Positions 12,107-51,600 of a DNA stretch of 64,000 nt are shown here, in pieces. Below the pieces are notes generated by a model. The model did no database searches. It was not told the origin of the DNA and was given only the letters and a program-made list of their open reading frames with translations. This DNA comes from an uncultured Roseburia sp. Lineage in GTDB: Bacteria > Bacillota > Clostridia > Lachnospirales > Lachnospiraceae. The stretch's first letter is position 1. Each line of letters opens with the position of its first letter. The translations under genes and the position numbers were made by a program. The stretch is from the NCBI GenBank assembly GCA_947567625.1, contig CANONN010000005.1:1-64000 (forward strand), written 5' to 3'.

Positions 12107-12403
12107 ATGAGAAAAATAGCTCATACACTGGGAATTGCTTTTATGATTTTGGGGATTATCGGCTCTATCGCCTTGGCGCGTACGAATGGCGTTACGATAG
12201 ACTACGATTCCTATCGCGTTGTCGGAGAGCGAAGCATCTTTCTCACGATAGTTTGGTTTGCAGCCGGCATTTTTGGCACGGCGGTCGGCACGGTAATATT
12301 ATTTGCACTCAGCGAGATTTTGGAGAATCAGGAGATGCTTTACAGGAGAATTTCAGCGGTGGAGGAAAATGTAGAGCAGATGTGTAAGGAGCACAAAAAT
12401 TAA
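12107..12403 (+). CDS. Small two-TM membrane protein, function unknown
   Basis: A 98-residue protein with AGGAGG before the ATG at 12107. Two hydrophobic segments are visible (IAHTLGIAFMILGIIGSIALA and IFLTIVWFAAGIFGTAVGTVILFAL), separated by a polar loop, followed by a charged helical tail (ENQEMLYRRISAVEENVEQM) that could form a short coiled coil. I do not recognise the family. It is a single-gene unit with its own promoter and terminator. Confidence 0.7.
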   Translation: MRKIAHTLGIAFMILGIIGSIALARTNGVTIDYDSYRVVGERSIFLTIVWFAAGIFGTAVGTVILFALSEILENQEMLYRRISAVEENVEQMCKEHKN

Positions 12404-12436
12404 CAACGATATCGATCTTTACATAAGCGCGAAAGG

Positions 12437-12464
12437 GATTCCGGGAAGACTCGGAATCTTTTTT
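12437..12464 (+). terminator. intrinsic terminator
   Basis: The arms GATTCCG and CGGAATC are followed by TTTTTT. Confidence 0.85.
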
Positions 12465-12477
12465 GTTGCGCCATTAT

Positions 12478-12506
12478 TTGCTTTTTTATGGGAATACTAC
12501 TATAAT
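12478..12506 (+). promoter_or_regulatory. predicted promoter of the alpha/beta hydrolase gene
   Basis: TTGCTT and a perfect TATAAT with a 17-base spacer, 65 bases before the ATG at 12572. Confidence 0.6.
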
Positions 12507-12571
12507 ATGCCATAATGCCAGAATATGCGGGGATAGAAACCGCTGTCTGCCAATCAGGAAAAGAGGGAAAA

Positions 12572-13546
12572 ATGATGAGAGATAAAGTGATGAAAAGTAT
12601 TGGCGCTATTTGCGCAGTGTTTACCGTTTTTATGGCGTCCGGCTGGTCTTTTTTTAAGATGATTGTCTGCTGCAAGGAAAATAAAAGGCTGATGAAAAAG
12701 AAATGGTTTGCGCTCTCGCACACCAAGGTAAACCATCCCAGATATAAGTTTGAACAGGAGTATGAGGAGGGAAAAGCATGGTGCATGCGGCAGCAAATGC
12801 GTGACTGCTATATCAAGAGCGCAGACGGCTTAAAGCTGCATGCTTCCTATCTGCCGGCAGAGCAGGCCAGAAGGATTGTGCTCTTAAGCCACGGATATAA
12901 AGGCAGCGGGTTCGGCGACTTTGCGTATATTTCACGCTTCCTCCATGAGAACCATTGCGACCTGCTCTTTCTTGACCAAAGGTGTTGCGGGGAGAGCGGC
13001 GGCGCGTATATAACTTTTGGGGCGATGGAGCAGTATGACGTACAGAAATGGGCGTACTATCTGGCCAAGCGCAACGATAGAAACCTTCCCATTTACCTCT
13101 ATGGGGAATCAATGGGGGCGGCTTCCGTGCTGATGGCATCCGGGCACAGTCTGCCGCAGGATGTGAAAGGGCTGATTGCAGACTGCGGATTTCGCTCGAT
13201 GAAGGGGCAGGTTCAGGATATGGCCGCTAATTGGTTTCATCTCCACTGGATTGGTTTGCTGCTGCTGCGCCTTGATTTGTTTTGCGCTCTGTTTGCAGGA
13301 TTTCGCATGAGGGATGCGGATACCTCACGGGCGATGAAGACCAACCAGAGGCCGGTATTGTTTTTCCACGGCGCCAAAGACACGTATGTAGACCCCGGGA
13401 ATTCGCTCTACAATTATTCTTTGTGCCGGGCGCCGAAAGAGCTTGTCGTGATACCCGAAGCAAGGCATCTTTGCAGCGCGTACGAAGAACCCCAGTTGTA
13501 CCGGGAAAAATTAATGGGATTTTTTGAAACGATAGAAAGCAAATAA
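12572..13546 (+). CDS. Membrane-anchored alpha/beta hydrolase
   Basis: A 324-residue serine hydrolase with one N-terminal transmembrane helix (about residues 8-30). The fold shows an oxyanion-type LLSHGYKGSG, then FLDQRCCGESGG, the nucleophile elbow YGESMGAAS (Ser180), an acid in FFHGAKDTYVD and a His in PEARHLCSAY, so the catalytic triad is complete. It resembles the YqkD/BEM46-like group of hydrolases. The substrate is unknown; esterase, acyltransferase or thioesterase action all fit. It lies 123 bases upstream of the condensation/carrier/ligase operon in the same direction, so a role in releasing or trimming that product is possible but unproven. GAAAAGAGGGA precedes the ATG. Confidence 0.8.
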   Translation: MMRDKVMKSIGAICAVFTVFMASGWSFFKMIVCCKENKRLMKKKWFALSHTKVNHPRYKFEQEYEEGKAWCMRQQMRDCYIKSADGLKLHASYLPAEQARRIVLLSHGYKGSGFGDFAYISRFLHENHCDLLFLDQRCCGESGGAYITFGAMEQYDVQKWAYYLAKRNDRNLPIYLYGESMGAASVLMASGHSLPQDVKGLIADCGFRSMKGQVQDMAANWFHLHWIGLLLLRLDLFCALFAGFRMRDADTSRAMKTNQRPVLFFHGAKDTYVDPGNSLYNYSLCRAPKELVVIPEARHLCSAYEEPQLYREKLMGFFETIESK

Positions 13547-13669
13547 AATAACAAGTGATGCAAAGTCTCGGTCAATTTTGGGTAAACTGTTTGCTAAGTC
13601 CCAAAGGGGGTAGAAATCAGAATCAAAATGTGTTAGGTTCTCATCAGAAAGAAAAAGAGGAGGTCGTGC

Positions 13670-15055
13670 ATGAGAGAATATTATCCATTGACAGCGGCAC
13701 AAAAAATGCATCACAATTGGATTTTGGATTACAAGACACAGCAGGTATCGGGGGTCAGCGTTGTGGCATCCCTGAAAGCAGCGCTTGATTTTGGCCTGTT
13801 GAAAAAATGTATCCAGTTGGAATTTGAGCGCTATGGGTGCATGAGAATCCGTTTTACCAAACCCGATGCAAACGGGGAAGTAAAACAGTATATTGTGGAA
13901 AAGGAAACCAGGGATATTCCGCTTAAGGATTTGTCGGGCATGAGCCTGGCTGAGGCGGACAATCTGATGCAGCAGTGGGCGTATGTGACGTTTGACGGGG
14001 ATGATATTCCATTGTGCGATGTGACCATGGTAAAGCTTGCGGAGGGTTACAACGGCTTTTTTATCCATATGGACCACAGATTGATCGATTCCTGCGGATT
14101 GGTAGTGATGATCAACGACCTGATGCAGCTGTACACGCATTATCGTTTTGGCTCCGAATACCCGAAGGATTTGGCGGACTTTGAGATGGTGCTCGAAAAA
14201 GACCTGAAAAAGGCGGGCAACGAAAAGCGCGCGGCCAAGGACAAAAAGTTTTGGGACGACCAGTTAGACGCGCTGGGGGAGCCGCTTTATTCGGACATCC
14301 AGGGGCCGTCTGTTCTCGAGGAGGCCAGAAAGCGGCACGGCGACAAAAACCTAAGAGCCGCCGATATCGAGTTAAAAAATTTATTTGTGGCGGTGAAAGA
14401 TTATGTGTTAGAGCCGGAGCCCACGAGAAACCTGATTGCATTTTGCATGAACCATCAGCTTTCCATGACCAACCTGTTGCTGCTTGGCATAAGGACTTAT
14501 CTGTCAAAAGTCAATAACGGGCAGGAGGATATTACGATCGAAAACTTTATTTCACGGCGGTCGACGCATGACGAGTGGACATCGGGCGGCAGCAGAACGA
14601 TCATGTTCCCCTGCAGAACAGTGATTCCTCCCGAGATGGAATTTTTGGCGGCCGCGTATGAGATTCAGAATGTGCAGAACAGAATCTATATGCACAGCAA
14701 TTATGACCCGGCGCTGATTGTGGAGGAGATGAGGAAACGCTACCACACGCCGGAGCACACCACATACGAGAGCTGTTATCTGACCTATCAGCCGATGCCG
14801 GTTAAGATGGACAATCCACATCTTGAAAGTATTGCGCAACATTCCAAATGGTTTGCCAACGGGGCGGCTACCAAGAAAATGTATCTGACCGTCTCCCATA
14901 CGGAGTACGGCGGCATGAACTTTTCTTATCATTACCAGACCGCTCATCTGGAAGAACATGATATGGAGCTGTTGTATTATTATATGATGCGGATTCTCTT
15001 TAAAGGAATCGCCGAACCGGATATGACCATCGGGGAAATCATGGAGCAAATATAA
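13670..15055 (+). CDS. Stand-alone condensation-domain protein
   Basis: A 461-residue protein with the fold of an NRPS condensation domain or related acyltransferase (the HxxxD superfamily that also holds PapA-type and wax ester synthases). It begins MREYYPLTAAQKMHHNW like many condensation domains. The active-site motif is HMDHRLIDSCG, with catalytic His136 and Asp140; the first His of the usual HHxxxD is Asp135. A C-terminal latch region with GGMNFSYHYQT is present. No adenylation or carrier module is fused; both are separate genes directly downstream (36 and 284 bases on). It probably transfers an acyl group from the carrier protein to a free amine or alcohol. AGGAGG lies eight bases before the ATG. 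Confidence 0.85.
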   Translation: MREYYPLTAAQKMHHNWILDYKTQQVSGVSVVASLKAALDFGLLKKCIQLEFERYGCMRIRFTKPDANGEVKQYIVEKETRDIPLKDLSGMSLAEADNLMQQWAYVTFDGDDIPLCDVTMVKLAEGYNGFFIHMDHRLIDSCGLVVMINDLMQLYTHYRFGSEYPKDLADFEMVLEKDLKKAGNEKRAAKDKKFWDDQLDALGEPLYSDIQGPSVLEEARKRHGDKNLRAADIELKNLFVAVKDYVLEPEPTRNLIAFCMNHQLSMTNLLLLGIRTYLSKVNNGQEDITIENFISRRSTHDEWTSGGSRTIMFPCRTVIPPEMEFLAAAYEIQNVQNRIYMHSNYDPALIVEEMRKRYHTPEHTTYESCYLTYQPMPVKMDNPHLESIAQHSKWFANGAATKKMYLTVSHTEYGGMNFSYHYQTAHLEEHDMELLYYYMMRILFKGIAEPDMTIGEIMEQI

Positions 15056-15091
15056 ATAGGGATGATGCGGAACTTAAAATAGGAGGAAAAA

Positions 15092-15331
15092 ATGGATCAG
15101 GAATTGCAGTTTAAGACGATTGTAGCACAGTATTGTGAGGTAAAACCGGAGGAAATGACAAATGATATGAGATTCCGGGAAGATCTGGGCTTTAGTTCCC
15201 TTGACTTTATGTCTTTTCTGGGGGAACTGGAAGATACGTTTGACATTGAGCTCGAGGAGGAACATGCGCTGCAGGTTGTCACGATCGCGCAGGCGCTGGA
15301 ATTATTGGATAAGTTGCAGCAGGAGGTGTAA
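15092..15331 (+). CDS. Acyl carrier protein
   Basis: A 79-residue four-helix carrier protein. The phosphopantetheine site is DLGFSSLDFMSFL, with Ser36 as the attachment residue; the usual Asp before it is Ser35. Helix II and III are acidic (LEDTFDIELEEEHAL), as in acyl and D-alanyl carriers. AGGAGG lies just before the ATG. It sits between the condensation protein and the AMP ligase, eight bases from the latter, and is best read as their dedicated shuttle rather than the fatty acid synthase ACP. No phosphopantetheinyl transferase is in the window. Confidence 0.9.
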   Translation: MDQELQFKTIVAQYCEVKPEEMTNDMRFREDLGFSSLDFMSFLGELEDTFDIELEEEHALQVVTIAQALELLDKLQQEV

Positions 15332-15339
15332 AAGGAAAA

Positions 15340-16896
15340 ATGGGAATGTTGATTCGTGATATCTTGGAAAATAGTGAAAAAGAGTTCGCCGAAATCAAGG
15401 CGGTAAAGTGGCTGCATAAAAAGGACATTTTAGAGAGAAGCTACCATGAGCTGGCGGGACATGTGGTGACGATAAGAAAGGGACTGCTCAAAGAGGGATT
15501 CTCTGGAAAGCATATCGCTTTGATCGGCGCCAGTTCCGTGGAATGGATTGAAAGCTATCTGGCGGTTATTACCGGTGATACGGTTGCGGTGCCGCTCGAT
15601 GCGGGCCTTTCGGGCGAGGATTTGATCGATCTGATCAATCGGTCGGATGCGGAGGCGCTCTTTTTAAGCCCGAAGAATCAGGCGCTTTTGGATGCGGTTT
15701 TGGCAGAGTGTCCGAAGATTAGAAAGATCTGGATGCTTCAGGAGGAAAAGGCGGAAGCTGTCGATGAAAAAGTGGCCTCTCTGGCAGAGTTAAAGAAAGC
15801 GGGAGAAAACAGCCAGGCTGACGCGGAAAGGCCGTCTGCCGATGATGTGGCGACCATTATTTTTACGTCGGGTACGACCGGAAAGAGCAAAGGAGTGATG
15901 TTGACGCAGAATAACTTGGCGGCCAACGTGATCGCTGTCAACTACACGGCCGACCCCGGCACCGTTATGCTGAGCGTACTGCCGATTCACCATGCATTTT
16001 GTCTGGTGATGGATTGGCTCAAGGGATTTTCGCTTGGCGCTACCGTGTGTATCAACGATTCTCTGCTGCATCTTGTGAAAAATATGAGTGTCTTCCAGCC
16101 GGAAGTGATACTGATGGTACCGATGATGGTGGAGACAATCTATAAAAGGCTTGCGGCGGCTGACCCGGCAATACCCAAACAGGCCCTGGCCGCGCATGTA
16201 TTTGGCGGCAGGCTCAAGATTATCTTTACCGGAGGCGCGCATCTTGACCCCTATTATATCGAGCAGTTTGCGGAATACGGCGTGAATATCTACGAGGGAT
16301 ACGGCATGTCGGAATGTTCCCCGGTCATCAGTTCCAATATGCCGGGAGATCACAAGCCGGGTTCGATCGGAAGGCCGCTCGCCAACGCCGAGATCGCATT
16401 TGACAACGGGGAGATACTGGTAAGAGGAAGCAGCGTCATGAAAGGATACTATCAAATGCCGGAGGAGACTGCCGAGACATTAAAGGACGGCTGGTTACAT
16501 ACCGGCGACAAGGGATATCTCGATGAAGACGGTTTCCTGTTTATCAACGGGCGTGTGAAGAACCTGATTATTCTTTCCAACGGCGAGAATATTTCGCCGG
16601 AGGAGATCGAGAATAAGCTTTCGCTCGGCGCGCTGGTCGGCGAGGTGATCGTCACAGGTGAGAACAACGGACTGACGGCGAGGATCTATCCTGACATGGA
16701 AGTCGTTCAGGCCAAGGGTCTGGATGAAGAGGCTGTCAGAGCCGGAATCCAGGAGTTTTTGGATCAGTACAATAAGACCCAGCCCACCTACCGCCAGATA
16801 ACAGGGCTTGTTGTGCGGAAAAATCCGTTTATCCGCAGTTCAACAAAGAAGATCAAGCGGCAGGAGGCATTGATCGACGAGCCGCTTCCTATGTGA
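15340..16896 (+). CDS. AMP-dependent acyl-acid ligase (ANL superfamily)
   Basis: A 518-residue adenylate-forming enzyme that should activate a carboxylic acid with ATP and load it on the neighbouring carrier protein. Motifs: IIFTSGTTGKSKGVMLTQNN (P-loop), YEGYGMSECSPVIS, TGDKGYLDEDGFLFINGR and the C-terminal catalytic lysine region RSSTKKIKRQEA. YGMSECSP and GRVKNLIILSNGENI are closer to fatty-acyl ligases than to amino-acid adenylation domains (NxYGPTE), so a fatty or aryl acid is the likelier substrate. Length is normal for a free-standing ligase. It is the last gene of the condensation operon and ends 11 bases before the convergent tetR gene. Confidence 0.88.
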   Translation: MGMLIRDILENSEKEFAEIKAVKWLHKKDILERSYHELAGHVVTIRKGLLKEGFSGKHIALIGASSVEWIESYLAVITGDTVAVPLDAGLSGEDLIDLINRSDAEALFLSPKNQALLDAVLAECPKIRKIWMLQEEKAEAVDEKVASLAELKKAGENSQADAERPSADDVATIIFTSGTTGKSKGVMLTQNNLAANVIAVNYTADPGTVMLSVLPIHHAFCLVMDWLKGFSLGATVCINDSLLHLVKNMSVFQPEVILMVPMMVETIYKRLAAADPAIPKQALAAHVFGGRLKIIFTGGAHLDPYYIEQFAEYGVNIYEGYGMSECSPVISSNMPGDHKPGSIGRPLANAEIAFDNGEILVRGSSVMKGYYQMPEETAETLKDGWLHTGDKGYLDEDGFLFINGRVKNLIILSNGENISPEEIENKLSLGALVGEVIVTGENNGLTARIYPDMEVVQAKGLDEEAVRAGIQEFLDQYNKTQPTYRQITGLVVRKNPFIRSSTKKIKRQEALIDEPLPM

Positions 16897-16907
16897 CAAA
16901 AATCTTT

Positions 16908-17486
16908 CTATGTGATAAAAGGGAGCATGACTGCCATAAAGGATTGGGTTAAAAGATCGGCGACGTCGTTGGCGGGAATCTGAAAATTCTCCGTGCTCCA
17001 TTTGTGCAGCACGCCGATCGTACTGCCGATCACGCAGGCGATCATATAGGAGAACGCTTCTTTGCTGTGGCGGGGCGGCGTGGTATCCTGCGTCACCCTG
17101 GCGACGTAGCGGTGAAACATGGTAATGAGTTTCTCAAAAAACGGCTCGCCTCCCGGATTTTTGAGGAGGTTGGCTAAAAACAGATTCGTTGTGGTGTACT
17201 CACAGATCGTCAGAAAGTAAGATTTGCAAATTTCTTTATCACTTTTGGGGTGAAAAGTCTCCATGAGGGAGAAGATATCCTTTATGGTCTTATCTTCGAT
17301 GGCGCTCACAAGAGCCGGAATGTTTTCGTAGTGGTTGTAGAACGTACTGCGGACGATTCCGGCTCTTTTGATAACGTCGGAAACGGTAATTTTATCGATA
17401 TCTTTTTCCCTGAGTACCAAAAAGAACGCGTCATAGATGGCTTCATCTGCGACATGGTAGCGCTCATCTTGTATATCATTTGTCAT
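16908..17486 (-). CDS. TetR-family transcriptional regulator
   Basis: A 192-residue regulator. The N-terminal helix-turn-helix is plain: KITVSDVIKRAGIVRSTFYNHYENIPALVSAI. The C-terminal half would be the ligand-binding and dimer domain (TetR_C-like). It is convergent with the ligase gene, and control of that operon through its acyl product is a plausible inference. I chose the ATG at 17486 because GAGG stands seven bases before it; an ATG at 17498 overlaps that ribosome site. Its leader carries one of the dispersed palindromic elements. A TATAAT (minus strand, 17551-17546) is the probable -10. Confidence 0.88.
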   Translation of the reverse strand: MTNDIQDERYHVADEAIYDAFFLVLREKDIDKITVSDVIKRAGIVRSTFYNHYENIPALVSAIEDKTIKDIFSLMETFHPKSDKEICKSYFLTICEYTTTNLFLANLLKNPGGEPFFEKLITMFHRYVARVTQDTTPPRHSKEAFSYMIACVIGSTIGVLHKWSTENFQIPANDVADLLTQSFMAVMLPFIT

Positions 17487-17492
17487 AACAGA

Positions 17493-17530
17493 CCTCATTT
17501 CTGCACGGCGAACAGCGTTTGCGTGTGCTT
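17493..17530 (-). repeat. dispersed palindromic leader element, copy before tetR
   Basis: On the minus strand the sequence shows GCAAAC-gct-GTTCGC followed by CGTGCAGAAATGAGG, which is the tetR ribosome site. The same end (TGCAGAAATGGAG) occurs at 53488-53500 and CGCAGAAATGAGG occurs at 23519-23531. Confidence 0.6.
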
Positions 17531-17696
17531 TGTTTCGTTACTTTTATTATAGCAAGCCGGCGGCGCGGCGGCTAGATTAAAAATGGCAAAATTTGGAGCG
17601 GATTGGGCTTTCATGGCGGGAGATCTGTTCCATGAAAAAAATAGAGAAAATGTGCCAAAACAGATGTTCTGTCTATAATCGTGCAGTTAATTCGTA

Positions 17697-17702
17697 TATA
17701 AT
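17697..17702 (+). promoter_or_regulatory. possible -10 box
   Basis: TATAAT stands 33 bases before the ATG at 17735. No good -35 is visible at 17-18 bases. Confidence 0.35.
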
Positions 17703-17734
17703 ATAGACTGTGATATATGGGGAGAAACGAAATT

Positions 17735-18730
17735 ATGAAAAAGAATGAACGTTTTTTTAACAAGTTTGGTCTATATGCAATCTCTATCATTGGAGTAATT
17801 TTAGGAATAACTCTGATTGCCTTTTCAAAAAATGTCCCTGATGTAGAAAATACACTAAATACCATAGGTCAGTTGATGATTACCGTTTCACTTGGTTCTT
17901 TATTTATGGAATGGTTTGGGTATGTCAATTATACCAGAAAAAGAATGTGTGAAATATTGGTGGAGGATGAAGTGATTAAGGTTCTCGATATCAATCGAAA
18001 AATGGAACTGAAGTCCGCACTGATTAAGAATATATACATGTATAATGCCCCCATGCTCCAAAATGAAGAGAATAATATTTCTACCATTATTGATAATGAA
18101 ATGGATAATATTCTTCGCGACTACTACTTTGAAGAATACATTATCTATATTGATGTGGCGGTCATTGAATATGAGGGGAAAAAATTTATACGAAAAAAGT
18201 TTCGCCATACATTTACAGCCAAAACTGTCAATAAAGATAAAACCATTTTAGAATCGCCCATCAATACTTTCTTAGAACCTCCGTCCGATCATTTAGAAGT
18301 GTTTGAATTGGACAAATTTATCATAAATGGAGAAAAGCAGGATGTTTCGGACTGGCAGGTTACCGTGGAAGAAAATAGGGATACCATGCAGCAGTCCTAC
18401 TCAAAACATTATTCGTTTGACAATATAATCGAACAAAACAAAAAGAAATTTACATTTCATGATAAGATTGACATTGATTTTGAATACCATACCTATGTTG
18501 CGATTGACGATATCGTTTATACTTACCAGATCAGAAAAGCTTGTAAACATTTTTGCATCCATTACAACGCCCCGATGGAATATAAAATTTTGATGGAAGG
18601 ATTTGGGTTTATGTCTACAGGCAATTCGCAAAGACAGAGAGTGGTGGAAACGGAGACCGGATGTATGTTAAGATTTCTTGACTGGATTCTTCCGGGTAAT
18701 GGCGCAATTATTGTATTGCAGAAAAGGTAG
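17735..18730 (+). CDS. AT-rich two-TM protein, function unknown
   Basis: A 331-residue protein I do not recognise. Residues about 10-30 (FGLYAISIIGVILGITLIAF) and 45-65 (TIGQLMITVSLGSLFMEWFG) are hydrophobic, giving two membrane helices. The remaining 260 residues are soluble, rich in beta-type sequence with many Tyr, Ile and Asn, and probably cytoplasmic. It contains EEYIIYIDVAVIEYEGKK and CKHFCIHYNAPMEYKILMEG. Base composition is clearly more AT-rich than the flanking pyr and pur genes, which suggests recent acquisition. GGGGAG before 17735 decides the start; an ATG at 17717 overlaps it. The layout (membrane helices plus one unknown domain) is seen in some bacterial defence effectors, but nothing here proves that. 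Confidence 0.75.
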   Translation: MKKNERFFNKFGLYAISIIGVILGITLIAFSKNVPDVENTLNTIGQLMITVSLGSLFMEWFGYVNYTRKRMCEILVEDEVIKVLDINRKMELKSALIKNIYMYNAPMLQNEENNISTIIDNEMDNILRDYYFEEYIIYIDVAVIEYEGKKFIRKKFRHTFTAKTVNKDKTILESPINTFLEPPSDHLEVFELDKFIINGEKQDVSDWQVTVEENRDTMQQSYSKHYSFDNIIEQNKKKFTFHDKIDIDFEYHTYVAIDDIVYTYQIRKACKHFCIHYNAPMEYKILMEGFGFMSTGNSQRQRVVETETGCMLRFLDWILPGNGAIIVLQKR

Positions 18731-34614: not shown

Positions 34615-37600
34615 ATGGCAGAGAAGTGGAAACTGAGGGGTAAAAGGATTGTTGCGTGGCTGCTTGTCTTTCTGATGAGCGTGACGTCGCTGGCCTTTGG
34701 CGACGCCGGTGCGGTGCAGGTTGCGGCGGCGGGGGTATCTGATTCCGGCGGGGTGGAGGTTAGGCCAACCGTGGAGGCAGACTGGTATGACAGGATCAAT
34801 CTTCCGCAGTACGGGAGGGACTTGTATATGTCCGTACAGTCGGCCAGCAATTACCAAAAGAATATTTTGGCCGGCAGGTATTTGATCTATGAGTCCGCCT
34901 TAAAGAGTGCGGACTACAAATTGCGGAATAATTCAATGGGTATCTTTTATGCAAAGAGGATTACAACCATCAACCGCAGCGCGGAGATGGAGGACAACGA
35001 TCCGGAAGACCTCAATATTAGACAGAGCGTCCGCACGGCCTTTGACGTGTTGCAGATGGACCACCCGGAAGTGTTCTGGCTGATTGGCGAACCGAAGATT
35101 TACCGTGAAGAGAGCGGCAGCAATACATCCGGTTATACCTATACATACTATCTTATGACATCTTGTGACAAGCGCAGCTACGATATCAGGGACAGCGCTT
35201 ATATAGACATTGACGACGGGACCAGTAAACTGTTGACAAACAAGATTGATAAGTTTAATACCGAGGTGAGCGCTATCGTCGGCAAATATGCCTCGCAGGA
35301 TGACGCCCATAAGGTTGCTTCTTTCCAGGAAGAGCTGATTAAAAAAGCAAATTATGCCTGCGAGTCGAGAGCAGGTTCCTCCTTTTATGCAAACCAGAGC
35401 CTTGCCCCCATCATGGGAGCGGGAAATACCGACGGCGCGGTGCCGACGGATATCGGCTATGCAAAGGCATTGAAGGTCCTCTGTGACAAAGCCGGTATTC
35501 CCTGCGTGATCACGGAGGGAACCGTAAATGGCCAGGCGCATATGTGGAATTATGTATATATGAACGACACCGACGCGTGGTATGCCGTGGACGTGGCCGC
35601 TGACGCGCTGCTTAGCAGCTCGGGCAGTATCTCACAGAAGTGGCTGCTTGTCGGCTCGGAGAGTATTGTCGATAAGGCGAGCGGTGAGAAGTATGGAGAT
35701 TCCCATGTCGGCGGTGCAAACCAGCTTTATACGGGCGGAATCGATCTTCCCGCCAGTATTGGTTTTACCAATGAGCCGGAGCTTAGCACGACACGATATA
35801 TTCTCAATCCCGTCAGAATCAACGGTGTCATTATTAAGGCTCCAACCAAGGGAAGCGGTACGGAGCAAAAACCGTATCAGATTTCTACCGAAGAGCAGAT
35901 GTTTTGGTTCGCTGCGTTGATAAACGGAGAGCTTGAGGACGGTGCACAGGAAAATGCGTGCGCAATTTTGCAGGAAAATATTACGATCAGCCATCCGTGG
36001 GTGCCGATTGGCAAGAGCGGCACGACGGGGGCCCATACATTTAGAGGCGTATTCGACGGTAATTATAAGACCGTAACCGGGTTAAATATCGACAGCGGAA
36101 GTACCGATAAACCGGGCGACAAATGGGGACTCTTCGGGTCCGTCAGCGGTACGGTAAAAAATCTGCATCTTGCAGGGGCCGCATACACAAATCCCGGTAC
36201 GGGAGTTTCCATCGGAACGGTTGCAGGCAGTTTAGCGTCAGGCGGTATCATCGACTACTGTTATGTGGACAAAAGTGTAGAGCAGCAGGGCGGTATGGCG
36301 CAGACGATCGGCGGTATGGTTTATGAAAATTTGGGGACGATCAATCACAGCTACACACTGTGCGGACCGTTGAAAGTGTCTGGTAATAATCGCTATACGG
36401 CCAGCTTTTTCCTTGATGCGGACGATTCCTCGGCAGATCCGGAGGGAAAGACACAAAAAGAGTTTGCCAACGGTTCCGTTACCTGGGCGCTAAACGAGGG
36501 CAACGAGGGAGAGACGAGCGAACCGATCTGGCGTCAGAATATTGATATGGGCAGCATCGACGCGTATCCGGTGTGGTATGAAGAGAGCGGCGTCGTATAC
36601 TACAGTACAACCGACAAAACGTATTCCAACAAGCGCTATCTGGATATCGCGTCCTGCTTTGTCAATAAGAATTACGCGTTCAACAATGCAAACAGGGATG
36701 TCGTACATGTGGAGCTGCCGGAGGACGTAAAAGGAAATCCGAAGATTTACTATTCCGTGCAGAAGGCGACAGGCAGTATGCCGGATGAGAACAAATGGCG
36801 CGACTACGATACGTTTGACTGTACTACCTTTGCGCCGGGAAGCTATTTTATTCTGGCAACCATGGAGGGAGCGCTCAATTACAGCGACGCCCAGGGTTAT
36901 ACCATGTTTACGGTAACCTCCAAGTCCTTTGCTCTGGACCCGGAGATTACCGGGCTTACCATTACGCTCAATTACCCGTCGGATGCGAAGATTCCGTACA
37001 GCGGTCAGGATGTGACGCCGATCATTACGGTTCGCGACGGTTCGCGCACATTGACGCAGGGAACCGATTACAGGTTTGAGGCGTATTCCCCCAATCCCTA
37101 CAACGCCGCAAGCGCAGGCGATAAGGTGTGGAGGGTGACAGGTATCAATGATTATACGGGTTCCCGAGACATTACTTTTACGATTACAAAGGCGGACGCG
37201 GGCGTGCGCATTGCCAGCAGCTATCCGCTCACTTACGATTATAGCGGGAATAATATTGCGTCCCCGACCGATGCGCAGATCATCCGTGACAATCAAAAAG
37301 ACGATCCCAACGCGACCGTGCGCATCGCATGGTACCGAGGCGACCAGACGACCGGAGAGTTAGATGAGGCCGAGCGGCTGGGCAATACCGAGACGCCCAA
37401 AAATGCGGGCACATATACGCTGGTGGTTACGGTAAGTTCGGCAACCGGCAACTATGAAGAGTCTTCGGTGCGCAAGCTGGTTACCATCAACAAGATCAAA
37501 CCGACCAAGGATTTGTACAATACGACGTCGTTTGCGGATTCCTATGAGTTTGACGGAAGAGAGAAAGAAGTAACCATTCAGCCAAACGGCGGCGTCGAAG

Positions 37601-40600
37601 GCTTAGGAGAACTCTCAATCCGATACCGCAAATCCGGTTCCAGCAATTATATCGACGGAAAGCCCAAGGACGCCGGAACTTATGAAGTAGTCGCGGTGAT
37701 TGCGGAGGGCGATAACTACCTGTCGAGCACCGTGGCTCTGGGCACATTTACGATCACGCCAAAGCCGCTGGCGGTGCATATGTTCCAGCTCGATGTCACC
37801 CAGTATTATAAGGGAATGGAGATTCGGCCGGATATTGATACCAGTGCGGAGCCGTCCCTGACGACCAACGATTATACGGCATCCTACCGCGACAATACCA
37901 GTATCGGTACGGCAACCGTGACGTTTACCGGTAAGAATAATTACAGCGGCTCGGTGAGTATGCAGTTTGAGATCAAGCCGAAGACGCTGCCGGAAAGTGA
38001 TTTCTACCGTCTCGAGTGCCTTGGAACCGTGGTGGATTATACGGAAAACTGGTATACCGGCGGAGTGAGAATCTATCCGGGTACGGTGCCTGGAAAGACG
38101 ATGACGATCTGGCGCAATAACAGTGCCGTCGGTTCCGCTTATATTGATATCACGACGGAGGGAACGACAAACGTCCAGTTCTATCTCAAGGACGGTGACG
38201 GGTATATCTACTATATGGAGAAAGACGACGGCACCTACGGGCTGGCCGATATGGATTTCAATATTGACCTGAATGCGCCAAGCTTTATCGGAGGCGGACT
38301 GAAAATTGGAAATCAGACGGTTACGACTTCCAACAATATGTTAGGTACGATTACGTTCCGCGACAGTGAAATCTACACCGAATCACTGACGGGTTCCGTG
38401 CAGGCGCAGGACAAATTTTCCGGCGTGGCAACCTGTTACTATTATGTCTATGTGTATACGGGCGAGGAGGACAGTATCAAGCCGCTGACAAAGGAGGAGC
38501 TGGATGCGATTACGTTTTACGAGGCATCGGAGAATGTCGGCGAGTTTAGCATTACCAATGACGGCAGATATGTGGTTTACGCATACGCGGTAGACCATGC
38601 GGGCAATAAGAGCGGCTATATCTGTACGCAGGGTATCACAATCGACACGATTCCGCCGGAGATTGTGGGTGTCATAGAGCCGAAGAAATCCAACGGTACG
38701 CTGCTGGATGTCGAGGCAACCGTGCAGTTTAAGGCGAGCGAATACGGTACATTTTACTATACCGTGCAGGAGAGCGGCGAAAATGCGCCGACCGTAGACC
38801 AGGTGATTGCAAACGGTACGTCGGGCGTGATGTCGGGCGGTTCACAGGATTCCTACCAGAATTTTATCAACCTGAAAGATTTGAAACCGAGCACGGAGTA
38901 TGTTCTCTACATTGCAGCGAAAGATAAAGCAGGAAATAAAATTCTCGATGTAAAAGCAGTGCCTTTTAAAACTTTAAAAATTATACCTAAATTTGATAAA
39001 CAGCCGACATGGAGCGGCGTCTATGGAACGATGATTAAGGATATGGAGGTCAAGACCGAGGATATCACCAGCACCAACGGGGCGACGGGTACCTGGTCGA
39101 TCAAAGATCCGTCGACGTCTGCCAATACGGCAATTTTGCAGGTCAACGACGAGGCGGCTCCGATGATTACGCTCGTGTATACGCCGGATGACACGGCCAA
39201 ATATGAGACGATCGAGGTGTCCGTGCAGCCTACCGTCATAAAACGGCCGGTGACAGTTACCATCCCGAACGTAACCAAGGTATATGGGGAAGAGATGACC
39301 ACCATTAAGATCGAGGGCGTGGCGATGACCGGCGCAACTCCCGAGGAGAGCATTGCCGCGGCATGTCAGGACCGCGTCACAAGCGACTACAATCCGATCT
39401 ATGTGACAAGAAACGGAGTTACGGATACGGTGGCTGATCTGAGCATCCATGTGACCATTCGCGCAGACAAAGATACGGATGCGGGTACTTATGCCGTTGA
39501 GGGCGCTTCCACCAGCCGCAACTATGATGTGACGTTTGTGAACGGCACGATTGAGATCACGAAGGCGACTCCGGTGATTACGATCGGCACGGCGTCCTAT
39601 GTGAAAGTATTTGGAGACGGCAGATTTGCCCTGGAGGGACTTGAGCACACCAACACGGATGTGGACGGCGTTTTACAGTTTGAGGTCATCAATTCGACGC
39701 CGGAGACACCGGGAGAGGCGGATGTGCATCCGGTGATCGACGTCCTCGCCAAGGGCGATGTGGATATTTTAGGCGCCGGAAGAGCAAAGATCAGGGTTTC
39801 CCTGCCGGAGACCAAGAACTATTTCGCAGTGCCCGGAACCGTCAACAAAGCGATCGAAGTGAGGGTCAATAAACGAGATGCCCAGGAGATTGCCCCGGAG
39901 ACGCGCAGATATGTATACGCGGCGGGGTCTAAGGATGCGCCTGTGGTGATCGACCTCAACGAGAAAGTGCCGGAGGATAAGGGGGCAATGGCCTGCACCG
40001 TGACAAAAGTGGTTGACGATTACGGTATGATCAAAGACGGCAAGGTGGAAGTGGATGCCGACGGCAATCTGACCTATGAAGTCAACAGAGGAGAGGAATC
40101 GCAGATTGGGCTGGGCGCAGACATAACGATAGAATATTTAATGCAGAATTACAAAAAGGCCGTTGCGTTGCTTCACATCGAATGGCGTGATAAGATCAAC
40201 GTAAAGCAGAGCAGCACAAATCCGGTGCGCATCGTGGGCGGCAACAGTCTGGTCTACGGTGACAGGCTTGATCAGCTGGTATTAAACAGCGATACGGTCA
40301 TATTTGTCGAGGACGAGGACCCGGAGACCGGTATTGAGGTTGCCGGCGAGCTGATGTGGATCAGCCCGGGAGAGGCTTTTGATGCGGGTACGGAGTCGGC
40401 CGACTGGGAGTATGTCCTGGAAGATACCGAGACTTACCGTGAGCCGGTCAGGGGGTCGCTGCCGATTATCATTGAGCGCGCCTCTGCGAATCTGGAAACG
40501 CCAACTGCCACCATCAGCCCGGACGAAGGCAATGAATGTGTGTACAATCCGACGAGAACGCTGGAAAAGGACGTGAGGATTCTTGGCGATAACGGCACCT

Positions 40601-42759
40601 GGACTGTGGCAGAGGAGGAAGTGACGGTCGAGGGAACCTGGAGCTGGGAGGAGGGCGCTACCGTTCCGACGGTGGATAAGACAGAGTACCCGGCAGTGTT
40701 TACGCCCAATGACATAACAAATTATCAGCCGGTGACGAAGATGGTTGCACTCACCACGACAAAGGCATTGCCTTATCTGGTGGAGAAGCCAGAGGCGGCA
40801 GCGATTACCTACGGCGACATGCTTTCTGCGGCCACATTTACCGGCGGTCTGGTAAGGCACAGCGAGGACACGGAAATTGTGGGCTATGATGTCGCAGTGC
40901 CCGGAACATTCCGGTGGGAATTAGAGGATGAAAAGCCCTGGGTGAAAGACAGTGAAAAAACCATTTATACGGTAATCTTTACGCCGGATGATTCCATTGA
41001 TTATGAAACGATCACGACCGAGATGACGGTGAAAGTAAATCCGGCGGAATGGCCGCCGCTGACACCGGAGGATACGCTTCATGTGCCGTTTGCCGTAAAA
41101 GGCATCTACGAGGTCGACTGGCCGCAAAGCTGGATACCCAAATCGTATGAGGCCGGCTGGGATCTCAATGAGCTGTCCCCTGTGACGATAGAAGTCAGAT
41201 ACGAAGGGGAAGACAGCGGTGTGGGCAATTATTTACACGAAGAGAAATCCGTGACCGTGATCCGCGCGGCCTGTGAGCACGACGGCGATAAAGAATACCG
41301 CAACGCCAAAGTGCCGACCTGTACCAAGGAGGGATATACCGGAGATACCTACTGTGCGATCGAGGGATGCGGCAGGTTTATCATGATGGGTGAAGTGATA
41401 CCGGAGCTGGGCCATGATTTAGATACGGCGCATCTGCTCGACAAAAAAGAGCCGACCTGTACCGAGGACGGTTATGCTGTGTATCCGTGTAAGCGGTGCG
41501 GCAGGGAAGCGCAGGTGGAGCTGTTATCGCTCAACCATGACTGGAGCAGCGAGTACACAATCGAAGAGCCGACCTGTACAGAGATTGGCAGAAAGTATAT
41601 TGTCTGCAACCGCTGCGGTGAGATCAATGAGGGAACCATGGAGGTGACGGAGGCGCTCGGACATATCGGAGGCGAAGCTACCTGTACCAAACTTGCTGTA
41701 TGCGACCGGTGCGGGGAGTCTTACGGCGCGCTCGATGCGAACCATCATCCTGATACAGAGGTGCGCAATGCCACAACGACAAGTTGCAGCCATGCGGGAT
41801 ATACGGGAGATACCTACTGTAATCTCTGCGGAACGCTGGTGAAGAAAGGCGAGACGATTGCGGCGATGCCGCACACATGGCAGCCGGGAGCAGTCACACA
41901 GCAGCCGACCTGTACGGCGGCCGGGGCGGAGAGCTTGGTTTGCAGTGTCTGCGGCGAGAAAGGAACGCATGTGATCGAGCCGTTGGGTCACAAGTGGGAG
42001 ACGACGCTTACGGTTGACAAACAGCCGACTGCTATGGAGCAGGGCAGCAAGTCCATCCATTGCAGCAATTGCGGAACGAGCAAACCGGGTACTGCGGTGG
42101 CGATACCAAAACTAAATATTACAAACGGCAGCGCGGTATACGACAACCAGGCGACTTATACAGTGACAAAGACAGGTAGCCAGGCGACCGTGGAATATAC
42201 GGGTACGAAGACCAATTCCACGACAGTCAATATTCCGGCGACGGTTAAGATTAACGGCAAGTCCTATAAGGTGACAGCGATTGCCAACAATGCCTTTAAA
42301 AATAACAAAAAGATCACCAAGGCAGTGATCGGCAGCAACGTGACAAAAATCGGTAAATCCGCGTTTGCGGGCTGTACGAAGCTAAGCACGGTCAGCATGG
42401 GCGGTAAAGTTACCGAGATCGGCGACAGCGCGTTTTCAGGCTGTACGAAACTGAAATCACTGACGATCGGCAAGAGTGTGACGACGATCGGTGCGAAGGC
42501 ATTTTATAAGTGCAGTGCGCTGAATAAGCTGACGATTCCGGCCAAAGTGAAAAAGATTGGCAGTCAGGCGTTTATGGGATGTAAGAAGTTAAAGAACATC
42601 ACCGTTAAGACGAAGAAGCTGAAAGCGGGCAAGGTGGGCAGCAAAGCCTTTAAGGGAATCAACGCGAAAGCGGTAATCAAAACACCGAGCGGAAAGAAAG
42701 CTTCTTACAAGAAGATATTTACCAGCAAAGGAGCGGGTAAGAAAGTTACTTACAAATAA
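34615..42759 (+). CDS. Giant BspA-like surface protein with inactive-looking transglutaminase domain
   Basis: A 2714-residue secreted protein. Residues 1-38 form a Sec signal. About 60-370 is a transglutaminase-like fold with the His (AHMWNYVYM) and Asp (WYAVDVAAD) but no Cys at the usual place (VPTDIGYAKAL instead of the family's VCEGYA). About 430-640 looks like GLUG-type beta repeats (FRGVFDGNYKTVTGL). About 640-2200 is a long array of MBG/Ig-like units (NAGTYTLVV, YSGSVSMQFEI) with a fibronectin-like segment. About 2219-2500 has five Cys-pair modules (PTCTEDGYAVYPCKRCG type). About 2505-2714 is a BspA-type leucine-rich repeat (IGKSAFAGCTKL). No LPxTG signal is seen. A role in adhesion or surface binding is inference. 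Confidence 0.88.
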   Translation: MAEKWKLRGKRIVAWLLVFLMSVTSLAFGDAGAVQVAAAGVSDSGGVEVRPTVEADWYDRINLPQYGRDLYMSVQSASNYQKNILAGRYLIYESALKSADYKLRNNSMGIFYAKRITTINRSAEMEDNDPEDLNIRQSVRTAFDVLQMDHPEVFWLIGEPKIYREESGSNTSGYTYTYYLMTSCDKRSYDIRDSAYIDIDDGTSKLLTNKIDKFNTEVSAIVGKYASQDDAHKVASFQEELIKKANYACESRAGSSFYANQSLAPIMGAGNTDGAVPTDIGYAKALKVLCDKAGIPCVITEGTVNGQAHMWNYVYMNDTDAWYAVDVAADALLSSSGSISQKWLLVGSESIVDKASGEKYGDSHVGGANQLYTGGIDLPASIGFTNEPELSTTRYILNPVRINGVIIKAPTKGSGTEQKPYQISTEEQMFWFAALINGELEDGAQENACAILQENITISHPWVPIGKSGTTGAHTFRGVFDGNYKTVTGLNIDSGSTDKPGDKWGLFGSVSGTVKNLHLAGAAYTNPGTGVSIGTVAGSLASGGIIDYCYVDKSVEQQGGMAQTIGGMVYENLGTINHSYTLCGPLKVSGNNRYTASFFLDADDSSADPEGKTQKEFANGSVTWALNEGNEGETSEPIWRQNIDMGSIDAYPVWYEESGVVYYSTTDKTYSNKRYLDIASCFVNKNYAFNNANRDVVHVELPEDVKGNPKIYYSVQKATGSMPDENKWRDYDTFDCTTFAPGSYFILATMEGALNYSDAQGYTMFTVTSKSFALDPEITGLTITLNYPSDAKIPYSGQDVTPIITVRDGSRTLTQGTDYRFEAYSPNPYNAASAGDKVWRVTGINDYTGSRDITFTITKADAGVRIASSYPLTYDYSGNNIASPTDAQIIRDNQKDDPNATVRIAWYRGDQTTGELDEAERLGNTETPKNAGTYTLVVTVSSATGNYEESSVRKLVTINKIKPTKDLYNTTSFADSYEFDGREKEVTIQPNGGVEGLGELSIRYRKSGSSNYIDGKPKDAGTYEVVAVIAEGDNYLSSTVALGTFTITPKPLAVHMFQLDVTQYYKGMEIRPDIDTSAEPSLTTNDYTASYRDNTSIGTATVTFTGKNNYSGSVSMQFEIKPKTLPESDFYRLECLGTVVDYTENWYTGGVRIYPGTVPGKTMTIWRNNSAVGSAYIDITTEGTTNVQFYLKDGDGYIYYMEKDDGTYGLADMDFNIDLNAPSFIGGGLKIGNQTVTTSNNMLGTITFRDSEIYTESLTGSVQAQDKFSGVATCYYYVYVYTGEEDSIKPLTKEELDAITFYEASENVGEFSITNDGRYVVYAYAVDHAGNKSGYICTQGITIDTIPPEIVGVIEPKKSNGTLLDVEATVQFKASEYGTFYYTVQESGENAPTVDQVIANGTSGVMSGGSQDSYQNFINLKDLKPSTEYVLYIAAKDKAGNKILDVKAVPFKTLKIIPKFDKQPTWSGVYGTMIKDMEVKTEDITSTNGATGTWSIKDPSTSANTAILQVNDEAAPMITLVYTPDDTAKYETIEVSVQPTVIKRPVTVTIPNVTKVYGEEMTTIKIEGVAMTGATPEESIAAACQDRVTSDYNPIYVTRNGVTDTVADLSIHVTIRADKDTDAGTYAVEGASTSRNYDVTFVNGTIEITKATPVITIGTASYVKVFGDGRFALEGLEHTNTDVDGVLQFEVINSTPETPGEADVHPVIDVLAKGDVDILGAGRAKIRVSLPETKNYFAVPGTVNKAIEVRVNKRDAQEIAPETRRYVYAAGSKDAPVVIDLNEKVPEDKGAMACTVTKVVDDYGMIKDGKVEVDADGNLTYEVNRGEESQIGLGADITIEYLMQNYKKAVALLHIEWRDKINVKQSSTNPVRIVGGNSLVYGDRLDQLVLNSDTVIFVEDEDPETGIEVAGELMWISPGEAFDAGTESADWEYVLEDTETYREPVRGSLPIIIERASANLETPTATISPDEGNECVYNPTRTLEKDVRILGDNGTWTVAEEEVTVEGTWSWEEGATVPTVDKTEYPAVFTPNDITNYQPVTKMVALTTTKALPYLVEKPEAAAITYGDMLSAATFTGGLVRHSEDTEIVGYDVAVPGTFRWELEDEKPWVKDSEKTIYTVIFTPDDSIDYETITTEMTVKVNPAEWPPLTPEDTLHVPFAVKGIYEVDWPQSWIPKSYEAGWDLNELSPVTIEVRYEGEDSGVGNYLHEEKSVTVIRAACEHDGDKEYRNAKVPTCTKEGYTGDTYCAIEGCGRFIMMGEVIPELGHDLDTAHLLDKKEPTCTEDGYAVYPCKRCGREAQVELLSLNHDWSSEYTIEEPTCTEIGRKYIVCNRCGEINEGTMEVTEALGHIGGEATCTKLAVCDRCGESYGALDANHHPDTEVRNATTTSCSHAGYTGDTYCNLCGTLVKKGETIAAMPHTWQPGAVTQQPTCTAAGAESLVCSVCGEKGTHVIEPLGHKWETTLTVDKQPTAMEQGSKSIHCSNCGTSKPGTAVAIPKLNITNGSAVYDNQATYTVTKTGSQATVEYTGTKTNSTTVNIPATVKINGKSYKVTAIANNAFKNNKKITKAVIGSNVTKIGKSAFAGCTKLSTVSMGGKVTEIGDSAFSGCTKLKSLTIGKSVTTIGAKAFYKCSALNKLTIPAKVKKIGSQAFMGCKKLKNITVKTKKLKAGKVGSKAFKGINAKAVIKTPSGKKASYKKIFTSKGAGKKVTYK
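41270..42110 (+). repeat. Cys-pair module repeats within the BspA-like gene
   Basis: About five in-frame modules share PTCTxxGY...CxxCG with conserved His or Gly-His (LGH) spacers. Each unit has two Cys pairs and may bind metal or form disulfides. They separate the Ig-like array from the leucine-rich repeats. Confidence 0.7.
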
Positions 42760-48240: not shown

Positions 48241-48622
48241 TGCACAGGGTTGCATAAGGAAATTAGCAGCTTTGCTGCATGCACCCCGCGCGGCGAGTAG
48301 GGGGGAAATCTTCCTACTCGATTGCACAGCCCCGTACAGAGGAAACGTGCCGCCGTGTGGCGCACGGGGGAGCAGAAGCATTTCGTCAGAAAAGAAATTG
48401 TTTCTGGAAGTAAAGGGCGCCATTTTGTGGAAAAAGATAATTTTGTAATAGTTTAGCAAATTTTTATTGTGTACTTTGTGTGAAAAATAATGTATAATTT
48501 ACGCAGAACAGGTGTGGCTGCAATGATACATAAATACAAAATCAACCAAAAGTCTGCCATGACATATGTTGGGGGCTGTTTCCTGGGATTGCGGCCATAG
48601 GGATAAGGAAAGGAGAGCATGG
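48241..48622. other. structured intergenic region before the esterase gene
   Basis: No supported gene. Inverted repeats are dense: GCAGC-ttt-GCTGC (48266-48278), CGAGTAGG/CCTACTCG (48294-48320) and a GC-rich CCGTGTGGCGCACGG near 48353. TGCACAG is repeated at 48241 and about 48324. The last 150 bases are AT-rich and contain TATAAT at 48493-48498, the probable -10 of the gene at 48623, without a clear -35. A small RNA is possible but no family is recognised. Confidence 0.5.
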
Positions 48623-51600
48623 ATGAGGAACGGAATATGTAAAAAAGCGTTATCGCTTGGGCTGGCTGTCATGCTGACTGCCGGCAGCTTGTTTATGACG
48701 CCGTCGACGGAAGTCTCCGCAGCTGCCAAGGCGCCAAGTAAGATTACGCTCAACGCGAAGACGAAGACGATTGGGGTGGGGGAGAAGTTTAAACTCAAAG
48801 TAAAATCCGTCACTCCCAAGGCGGCTTCTAAGAAAGTGACTTTTAAGACCAGCAGCAAAAAGGTTGCGACGGTGTCAAAACAGGGTGAGGTAAAGGGCAT
48901 CAAGCCTGGCAAAGCCAAGATTACTGTCACATCCCAGGCCAAGAAATCCGTTAAGGCCACATGTACGGTAACGGTAGCGGGTATTGTCGTAAAAAATGCG
49001 GTAAACGGTGTTTTGACCGTGGATGTGAATAAGACAATGACACTGAAGCCGACTGTTTCCCCTAAGAAAGTGACGACGGCAAGTTTTACCTATTCGATCA
49101 AAGATAAGAAAGTGGCGACGGTTACAAGCGGGGGAAAATTGACCGGAGTGCGTGCCGGAAAGACGACACTGACGATCAAGACGAAGAAAAAGAAGAAGAG
49201 CGACAAAGTGCTTACATTAAAACTGTCAGTAGTTGTTCCGGGAACGTCTGCTGATTCGCAGCAGCCGGGCAGCTCCGAGGCGCCGAATCCGCCGCTGCCG
49301 GGAGGAGACACGCAGACACCGGGAAGCGAGACGGGAAATACGCAGACACCGGGAAGCGAGACAGGAAATACGCAGACACCGGGAGGAGATACGCAGACAC
49401 CGGGAGGAGACACACAGACACCGGGAAGCGAGACGGGAAATACGCAGACACCGGGAAGCGAGACAGGAAATACGCAGGTGCCGGGAGGAGACACACAGAC
49501 ACCGGGAAGCGAGACGGGAAATACGCAGACGCCGGGGAGCGAGACAGGAGATACGCAGACGCTGGGAAGCGAGACGGGTGATTCTGAAACAACGGACCCG
49601 AATGTAATTAAAACGTGGAAGTTTGATTTTGGTACGGCAGAGGATGTCGCTCCAGGTTACACGGCGGTGACGGCGGATAAGGATTACTATGCGGACGATA
49701 ACACCGACGGATACGGATTTTTAGGTATCAATAAGAACTCTGACAAAATCAGTAACCGCCTGGACGGTTTCGGAAACCAGCCCGGCCAGGTGCAGGATTT
49801 GCGGATTGGCGGCGGAAGCGGATTAAACGATGCGATAGGGTGCGTAGGCATCTTGGGGCTGGACGGACAGCAGCCGGCAGAGCTTGACCCGCTGGGCGAT
49901 GCATATTATCCTACCCGCTTTGCTTTGAAGGTAGAGGATGAGACGTATTACCGGGTGACGGCGACTGTTACTACGCTTGATCCCACAAAGGATGCTACGG
50001 CGACGCTCTATACGGAGAGAAAACATCCGATCTATACGGATAGAAAGATTGCGGCCGGAGAGACGAGCGAAGAGGTATTTACCATCCGGGTAACGCCGAT
50101 CTATTACGAGAAATCCGAGCCGAAAGGCTTGATCGCGGACGGCATGGTAAATGTATGTGTGGCGGGTGACAATACGGCGCTTGCCGCGCTTAAAATTGAA
50201 CAGATTAAGACGGCGCCGACGCTGTGGGTACTCGGCGACTCGACTGTGACGGACGGGAATACCACGCTTCCGTTTTTCCGGCTTCAGAATTATACCGGCG
50301 TCGGCACAGGACTCACAAAGTATCTGCCGAGTAATATCGCCATGGTCAATGAGGGCGAGGGTGGATTAAATGCGGCCGACAACAATCATTTTAATGTTGT
50401 CAAAGACAGAATCAAAGAGGGCGACTGGATGTATGTCGAGTACGGCCATAACCACAAAAATGACGGGCCGGAGGGCTACAAGAGCGCGCTCGATAAATAT
50501 TTTAATGTTTGCGAGGAAAAAGGCGCGAAGCTCCTGATTGTAAGCCCCATCGAAAGAATTAACACATTCGAGGATAATGAATACAAGCACACGCTGGATG
50601 CCTTTGCGGCAACGGGACAGCAGTATGTGCAGGAGAAGATCGCTGCGGGCAAGACAAATATCGCGTTTGTGGATTTGAACAAAACGAGTTATGAATTTTA
50701 CAATAAGATCACGAGCGACAATAATAACGATCCTAATATGATCAAATTCTACTTCTGTACATTGGCGGGCGGCACCACGGACGCAACCCACCCGAATGAC
50801 GCGGGGGCGGAGAATCTGGCTTACTGTTTCTTCGAGGCGGCAAAGGCAGTCACAGACGAAACGCAGAAAAAAGTTCTTTCCGGTCTGATAGACGTTATGC
50901 GCGATGAGACGCCGAACCTTGTGCCGAAGGAGATCACCGACCTTGGACCGGCGCCAAACAGCGCATGGCCGGTATATAACGTGCCGGTAGACGAGAAGTA
51001 TCCGGTGGTTGTAAAAGACGTGCGGTTTGATGCGGAAGGAAATCTCACCACTGTCAAGGTAAACGTACAGCAGGCACAGACGGCGATGACAGCTTACGGG
51101 ATTATCGTTGTGACGATAAAGGATGCGTCCGGTAATCTAAAAGGGATTCTTTATGCGGTAGATCAGGTCGACAATTCGACGGGCTATGGCGCACAAACGA
51201 TTACCAATTTCCGTGGAGTAGACGCAGCCGGAAACGCAGCCGATATTAAGCTTGCCGAAGGTGATGCGTATGTGGCTGTAGTAATGAAAGCCGCGCAAGG
51301 CAATGAGCCGCTTGTTCCTGATCAGGAAAATATTGCGTATTCGGCTGAGTTTACCGAAGCTGACCGGACCGAGATTGACACTTATCTGCTGCCGGGCGAG
51401 TCGGATGATGTGGAAGACTTTAACTATTTTGCTCAGACTGAGCTGACCGGAGGCAAAAAATGGACCTTTGGCGGAAGCAGCGGAAATGATTTGACACTTG
51501 GAAAAGAGGCGGACGGAAGGACATATACCAATCTTATGGCTAAACAGACAGCGGACGGAAGGCTTGGTTCTTGGTTTGTGTGGCGTGCGTTGGAGAATCT

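Follow-up and report, generated by a model that had tools for sequence, protein, structure and literature searches.

Three-gene sets encoding a condensation protein (C), a carrier (T) and a ligase (A) have been described as fatty acid amide (FAA) or 'CTA' operons of gut Clostridia in two preprints (PMC13142362 and PMC13060934, as far as their accessible parts go), the original report being Chang et al. 2021 (doi 10.1038/s41564-021-00887-y). According to the accessible part of PMC13060934 the operon occurs in 36 Lachnospiraceae species, has the order C, carrier, ligase and is tied to the formation of acyl amines and the relief of fatty acid toxicity. Here we analysed a C-T-A set on a 64,000-nucleotide stretch of DNA (the window; positions 1 to 64,000 of contig CANONN010000005.1, assembly GCA_947567625.1) from an uncultured Roseburia sp. 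Judged from the sequence it is very probably an FAA operon that makes N-acyl amines. The gene set, which has the published gene order, is already described, and the window is one more member of this known kind.

Experimental data are available for several operon carriers. Cultures of operon-bearing Blautia yielded ethanolamides and oleoyl dopamine (PMC13060934, accessible part), while the production of oleoyl ethanolamide by Eubacterium rectale is credited to Chang et al. 2021 in the available text of PMC11979265. The cluster of Coprococcus eutactus resembles the window in having free-standing OaaA, OaaACP and OaaC proteins and a DHxxxDS motif. Its OaaC forms amides in vitro, as assayed with aminovaleric acid and γ-aminobutyric acid (GABA) (PMC13142362), and is a homodimer that is opened by the holo- or acyl-form of the acyl carrier protein (ACP). 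The FAA C domains are, in the accessible part of PMC13142362, nearest to the starter condensation domains of nonribosomal peptide synthetases (NRPS). Starter domains share the acylating condensation fold with the C protein of the window but typically use acyl-CoA and carrier-bound amino acids, whereas the window encodes separate proteins and no such module.

The C protein of the window is complete, since it covers positions 2-444 of the 456 positions of the Pfam Condensation model. At 14072-14092 its translation reads D135-H136-R-L-I-D140-S141. DHxxxDS is a hallmark of the FAA-type C family (PMC13142362, accessible part), and DHRLIDS at residues 135-141 follows the non-canonical (D/H)HxxxDS pattern of FAA C proteins. 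The residue after the motif Asp is Ser in 42%, Ala in 36% and Gly in 17% of 127 FAA sequences (PMC13142362). As closest match in the PDB we obtained entry 12KH (637 bits, full length, 56.6% identity over 459 amino acids), which is the OaaC of C. eutactus (PMC13142362).

A scan of the sequence collection with C alone returned 168 relatives, of which the best 80 were analysed using mechanically called open reading frames (ORFs), such that this set leans to close relatives. It contained mostly Lachnospiraceae, Eubacterium, Blautia, Lachnoclostridium and other Clostridia, many of them from gut or rumen samples; one metagenome-assembled genome was labelled Alistipes, where wrong binning is suspected. 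DHRLIDS was present in 73 of these 80 C proteins, two others had one position changed and the pattern was not found in the remaining 5. The carrier of the window is complete as well and has its predicted phosphopantetheine site at Ser36 in LGFSSL (codon 15197-15199), and a serine or threonine preceded the carrier serine (S/T-S-L) in all 78 carriers found at the 80 loci. The initial annotation had taken DH in place of HH and SSL in place of DSL as a sign that the set had drifted together. Such drift was rejected on the conservation across related loci: both motifs are family signatures. The three residues that the annotation named (His136, Asp140 and the carrier Ser36) can be read directly from the translations.

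The relation to the described systems was also seen in a tree of C proteins. This midpoint-rooted tree comprised 64 rows, with every fifth C protein of the best-80 set plus six chosen sequences; NRPS C domains of other classes were absent from it. A branch with a support of 100/98 separated the window C, OaaC and 31 further close C-T-A rows from the remaining rows, OaaC lying just outside the 32 close ones. The C protein of Blautia wexlerae was nested within the window's 29-row group (support 100/99). In this tree, which is free of starter and LCL domains, the window C appears to belong with the FAA-type C proteins. Compared to B. wexlerae MSK.20.46 the identities were 82.7% for C (462 columns), 74.5% for the ligase (514 columns) and 69.7% for the carrier. 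PMC13060934 in its accessible part called homologues at 70% identity and 80% length to the proteins of Chang et al. 2021; C and ligase of the window are above 70% in our comparison, for which the comparator differs from these catalogued proteins. The CTA operon of B. wexlerae resembles the window in its C-T-A order and, at locus L073, also in an upstream hydrolase, a convergent TetR gene and a cis element. With the corresponding proteins of the window, the B. wexlerae hydrolase shares 61% identity and its TetR 59%.

The initial annotation had proposed co-occurrence in relatives as the check for a pathway, and the best-80 set bore this out: C was followed on the same strand by a carrier in all 74 loci that extend 900 bases or more downstream, and by a ligase in all 72 loci that extend 1300 bases or more. 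Carriers were accepted at distances of up to 1900 bases to allow for ORFs with early starts (L050, L059, L135), and two loci with short downstream sequence (L037 with 761 bases, L075 with 31 bases) are outside both counts. Of the close relatives that extend 3000 bases or more downstream, 57 of 62 had a convergent TetR gene. That the pathway is undescribed, as the annotation had further supposed, is ruled out by the FAA/CTA descriptions in the accessible parts of PMC13142362 and PMC13060934, which contain the same three-gene set.

Within the family, a C match was obtained in 55 of 299 genomes, the window's own included. The operon is patchy in the family, since the sole other genome of the same genus among those drawn had no C match; for Blautia and Coprococcus a patchy occurrence is reported as well (PMC13060934, accessible part). 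We examined the 42 stronger family places, of which 11 were close (C above 500 bits) and 31 distant. All 11 close places had the carrier and the ligase, 7 of the 11 had the convergent TetR and 4 of 10 had the hydrolase.

Table 1. Features of the operon and its direct surroundings in the window.
Feature	Position	Strand	Basis or remark
Alpha/beta hydrolase	12572..13546	+	likely start 12572 within ORF 12515-13546; Pfam Hydrolase_4, 58 bits
Conserved cis element of about 70 nt, putative regulator site	13563..13632	+	nhmmer profile
Condensation protein C, stand-alone, FAA-type, 461 aa	13670..15055	+	Pfam Condensation, 112 bits
Acyl carrier protein T, stand-alone, 79 aa	15092..15331	+	PP-binding, 45 bits
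Fatty-acyl-AMP ligase A, stand-alone, 518 aa	15340..16896	+	AMP-binding, 215 bits, and AMP-binding_C_3
TetR-family regulator, convergent with the ligase	16908..17498	-	TetR_N and TetR_C_8, over cut-off

The window is part of a draft genome of 3.42 Mb in 110 contigs (here contig C5). ORFs and Pfam matches confirmed the layout that had been described for it: three stand-alone genes on one strand, with 36 bases between C and carrier and 8 bases between carrier and ligase, flanked by an upstream serine hydrolase and a convergent TetR gene (Table 1). For the latter the annotated start at 17486 did not hold, being the second methionine of an ORF that opens at 17498. No tRNA was found in the 64-kb window by ARAGORN. 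A consensus scan for promoters and terminators gave 9 and 6 hits, respectively, compared to 7.0 (sd 2.8) and 5.2 (sd 2.2) in shuffled sequences. At 12437-12506, just 5' of the hydrolase gene, we noted a stem GATTCCGGGAAGACTCGGAATC, a T run and a TATAAT, which the consensus scan had missed; this is likely the end of the preceding unit and the start of the one that begins with the hydrolase. A 337-amino-acid protein encoded at 17717-18730, adjoining the TetR gene, lacked matches in Pfam and NCBIfam at E 0.001 and had no counterpart in the related loci searched.

The 31 distant places had a carrier in 28, a ligase in 28 and an upstream hydrolase in 28 cases, while a TetR of the window type was found in none of 27. 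Their C proteins were mostly 33-40% identical to the window C (27% in L161, where the gene order is C-ligase-ACP). The first motif residue was Asp in 22, Asn in 6 and His in 3 places, and the motif Asp was followed by Ala in 28 and by Ser in 3, giving mostly xHxxxDA. From these residues we infer that the 127-sequence set in the accessible part of PMC13142362 would span the close and the distant lineage. The distant lineage shares hydrolase-C-T-A with the window but differs in its TetR and in an SCP2 lipid-binding gene: both annotated loci, L137 (3401-8720) and L149 (3728-9087), have an SCP2 lipid-transfer gene 5' of hydrolase-C-T-A and a divergent TetR gene.

L132 (5441-6829) and L133 (5072-6475) encode stand-alone C proteins that share 40% identity with the window C, and no adjoining carrier or ligase was found there. 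Both adjoin the OaaC group in the tree, the neighbour in L132 being a LacI-type regulator; possibly they work with a carrier encoded elsewhere in the genome. L002 has a second condensation-like gene (G000:C67:247-603; 24.5 bits, below the Pfam cut-off) with the motif HHLAGDG; by eye, its frame is perhaps broken and a helix-turn-helix gene seems to follow.

The hydrolase has an N-terminal hydrophobic helix and the residues of a serine hydrolase triad, namely the GESMG nucleophile Ser199, Asp289 and His318 (numbering of the ORF opening at 12515). Among 72 close relatives of the best-80 set, 58 encode it on the same strand no more than 1 kb upstream of C; within 4.5 kb none was found in 9 of these 72 loci and in 5 of the 10 close family loci. 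A hydrolase of the same family adjoins C in both the close and the distant lineage, between which the identity of C is about 40% or less. In a hydrolase tree with every fourth hydrolase of the best-80 set, the linked hydrolases formed two separate groups of 23 rows (99/100) and 28 rows (100/99). We considered two independent recruitments for this pattern and rejected the idea, as the approximately unbiased (AU) test, for which row L179 without a match to the hydrolase was removed beforehand, does not reject a single origin (p 0.0715). Taken from this linkage, the hydrolase is a candidate accessory gene of the CTA operon.

An alternative for its role is that the hydrolase breaks the product rather than supplying fatty acids, such that a bacterial fatty-acid-amide hydrolase (FAAH) and the CTA enzymes would form a reversible make-and-break cycle. 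The triad residues, which were present in all 51 aligned linked copies, and the linkage in both lineages would suit such a role. Among the closest solved folds are esterases, monoglyceride lipases and a thioesterase, which points away from it, with the reservation that the fold does not decide the substrate. Human FAAH also has a fold different from that of alpha/beta hydrolases. Overall we regard product breakdown as unlikely.

We also characterized the conserved element upstream of C. Its profile, built from 41 sites with the window copy included, gave a single match in the 64-kb window with nhmmer (71 bits, for what is a training sequence). Upstream of C it was detected in 73 of 91 close-lineage loci (E < 0.05), in 33 of 51 loci outside model building and in none of the 31 distant-lineage loci. 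In a subset of relatives the element region contains a near-perfect inverted repeat, TATCAAACA-N13-TGTTTGATA. At least 13 of its 16 half-site positions were present in 28 of 83 upstream regions compared to 0 of 83 shuffled ones; the repeat was counted in the same regions in which it had been found and the control was one plain shuffle per region, so that the comparison is not independent. In L047, L123 and L126, changes in one half were matched in the other. The window copy has 7 of 8 positions in the right half (TGTTTGCT) and 4 of 8 in the left half; with this total of 11/16, which shuffled regions reach too, the site in the window is backed by the longer profile only. A palindrome scan of the window's own regions 5' of C and of TetR gave nothing over the set score. 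The inverted repeat would be compatible with a DNA operator and equally with a hairpin. An RNA element upstream of C was rejected as a candidate, since a comparison of 12300-17800 with Rfam was negative up to an E value of 1.

The natural reading of the roughly 70-nt element is a putative regulator binding site, and its adjacency suggests that TetR may be the protein that reads it. In the close lineage, for loci that extend 3000 bases or more downstream and 260 or more upstream, the element was present in 54 of 65 loci with a nearby TetR compared to 1 of 5 loci lacking it (Fisher p 0.006, uncorrected for relatedness). Eleven loci with TetR have no detected element, and in L054, L076, L124 and L125 the TetR gene lies upstream and is not convergent. 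Upstream of TetR the repeat was not found: the best score in 65 related-locus regions was 12/16, which shuffled C-upstream regions reached as well. For this reason TetR is only a putative reader of the site, and autoregulation of TetR through the repeat was rejected.

Hydrolase, operon and regulator can tentatively be combined into a larger fat-handling unit with CTA as its core. In this unit a membrane-anchored, monoglyceride-lipase-like hydrolase at the cell surface would free fatty acids from diet or host lipids, CTA would immediately convert them to harmless N-acyl amines, and TetR would sense fatty acids and switch the unit on via the element. The idea of a larger unit is weakened by the window repeat copy being at the level of shuffled sequence. 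If it is true, hydrolase and control site would tell the source of the fatty acids and when the operon is on, neither of which is addressed in the accessible parts of PMC13142362 and PMC13060934. The hydrolase link and the control element may be new beyond these parts.

For the FAA operon itself, the ligase would use ATP to activate a free fatty acid, which it would load onto the phosphopantetheine arm at Ser36 of the carrier. The C protein, via His136, would then acylate a small diffusible amine, e.g. ethanolamine, dopamine or an amino acid-derived amine, and the N-acyl amine would be released. These enzymatic steps are experimental in C. eutactus OaaA/OaaACP/OaaC and in B. wexlerae cultures; for the window we infer them by analogy. 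The N-acyl amide proposed by the initial annotation was right in substance: given the FAA/CTA membership it is the most likely product. The cell would likely benefit from detoxification of free fatty acids, and in the host the products could act as ligands of G-protein-coupled receptors. TetR and the upstream element probably set expression, and the hydrolase probably acts on the same lipids as the CTA enzymes.

Three points weigh against an FAA operon making N-acyl amines. Neither the amine nor the fatty acid is readable from the sequence, and the amines of OaaC and of Blautia differ. The Blautia and Coprococcus evidence, as far as the accessible parts of these preprints go, sets operon-bearing species or isolates against those lacking the operon and includes no gene deletion. 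In L037 (10001-12144), C is directly followed by a convergent TetR and the 761 bases downstream contain neither carrier nor ligase, which may reflect either a deletion or an assembly fault. The unreadable acceptor also leaves room for an alcohol or thiol, in which case the product would be an acyl ester (wax-like or acyl-glycerol). Condensation-fold proteins do include ester-forming members. Since OaaC forms amides in vitro, Blautia makes acyl amines and the window groups with both in the tree, we consider an ester highly improbable.

For a dedicated N-acyl amine pathway, carrier and ligase were further compared with the other copies in the same genome, in which one phosphopantetheinyl transferase was found. 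The three other carrier-like places are 37%, 33% and 23% identical to the window carrier; the first two have a canonical DSL and, by eye from translations, plsX/rnc and a FabK-like gene as neighbours. For the two remaining AMP ligases, the identity to the window ligase is 30% and 28%. The dedicated pathway survives this check, which the initial annotation had suggested, because the other carriers and ligases differ and the three proteins co-occur in relatives. The carrier departs from type II fatty acid synthase (FAS) carriers, with SSL in place of DSL and a C-T-A in place of a FAS gene context. Separate proteins, DHxxxDS and a fatty-acyl-type ligase likewise set the operon apart from a canonical NRPS module with its single multidomain protein and HHxxxDG, in agreement with the annotated minimal NRPS-like set lacking an amino-acid adenylation module. 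A role of the operon in primary lipid metabolism, in which fatty acids would be scavenged or recycled via the carrier and C would be incidental, would fit a ligase of general fatty-acyl type (best NCBIfam model: long-chain-fatty-acid-CoA ligase PRK06187, 261.9 bits, below the cut-off of 476) and a carrier whose scores, though below the NCBIfam cut-offs, resemble those of FAS carriers, but is hardly credible given the divergent copies elsewhere in the genome, the patchy operon and the constant company of carrier and ligase with C.

The window adds one further genome that carries the FAA operon, whose lipids are reported to be active on human receptors and, in Blautia, are tied to protection from fatty acids. 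Elsewhere the window encodes three very large, probable surface proteins: one of 2714 amino acids with a BspA-type leucine-rich repeat region (34615-42759), one of 1531 amino acids with Big_2 domains and a weak GDSL-lipase match (48566-53161), and a GH115 glycosidase of 2242 amino acids with Big_2 domains (54429-61157).

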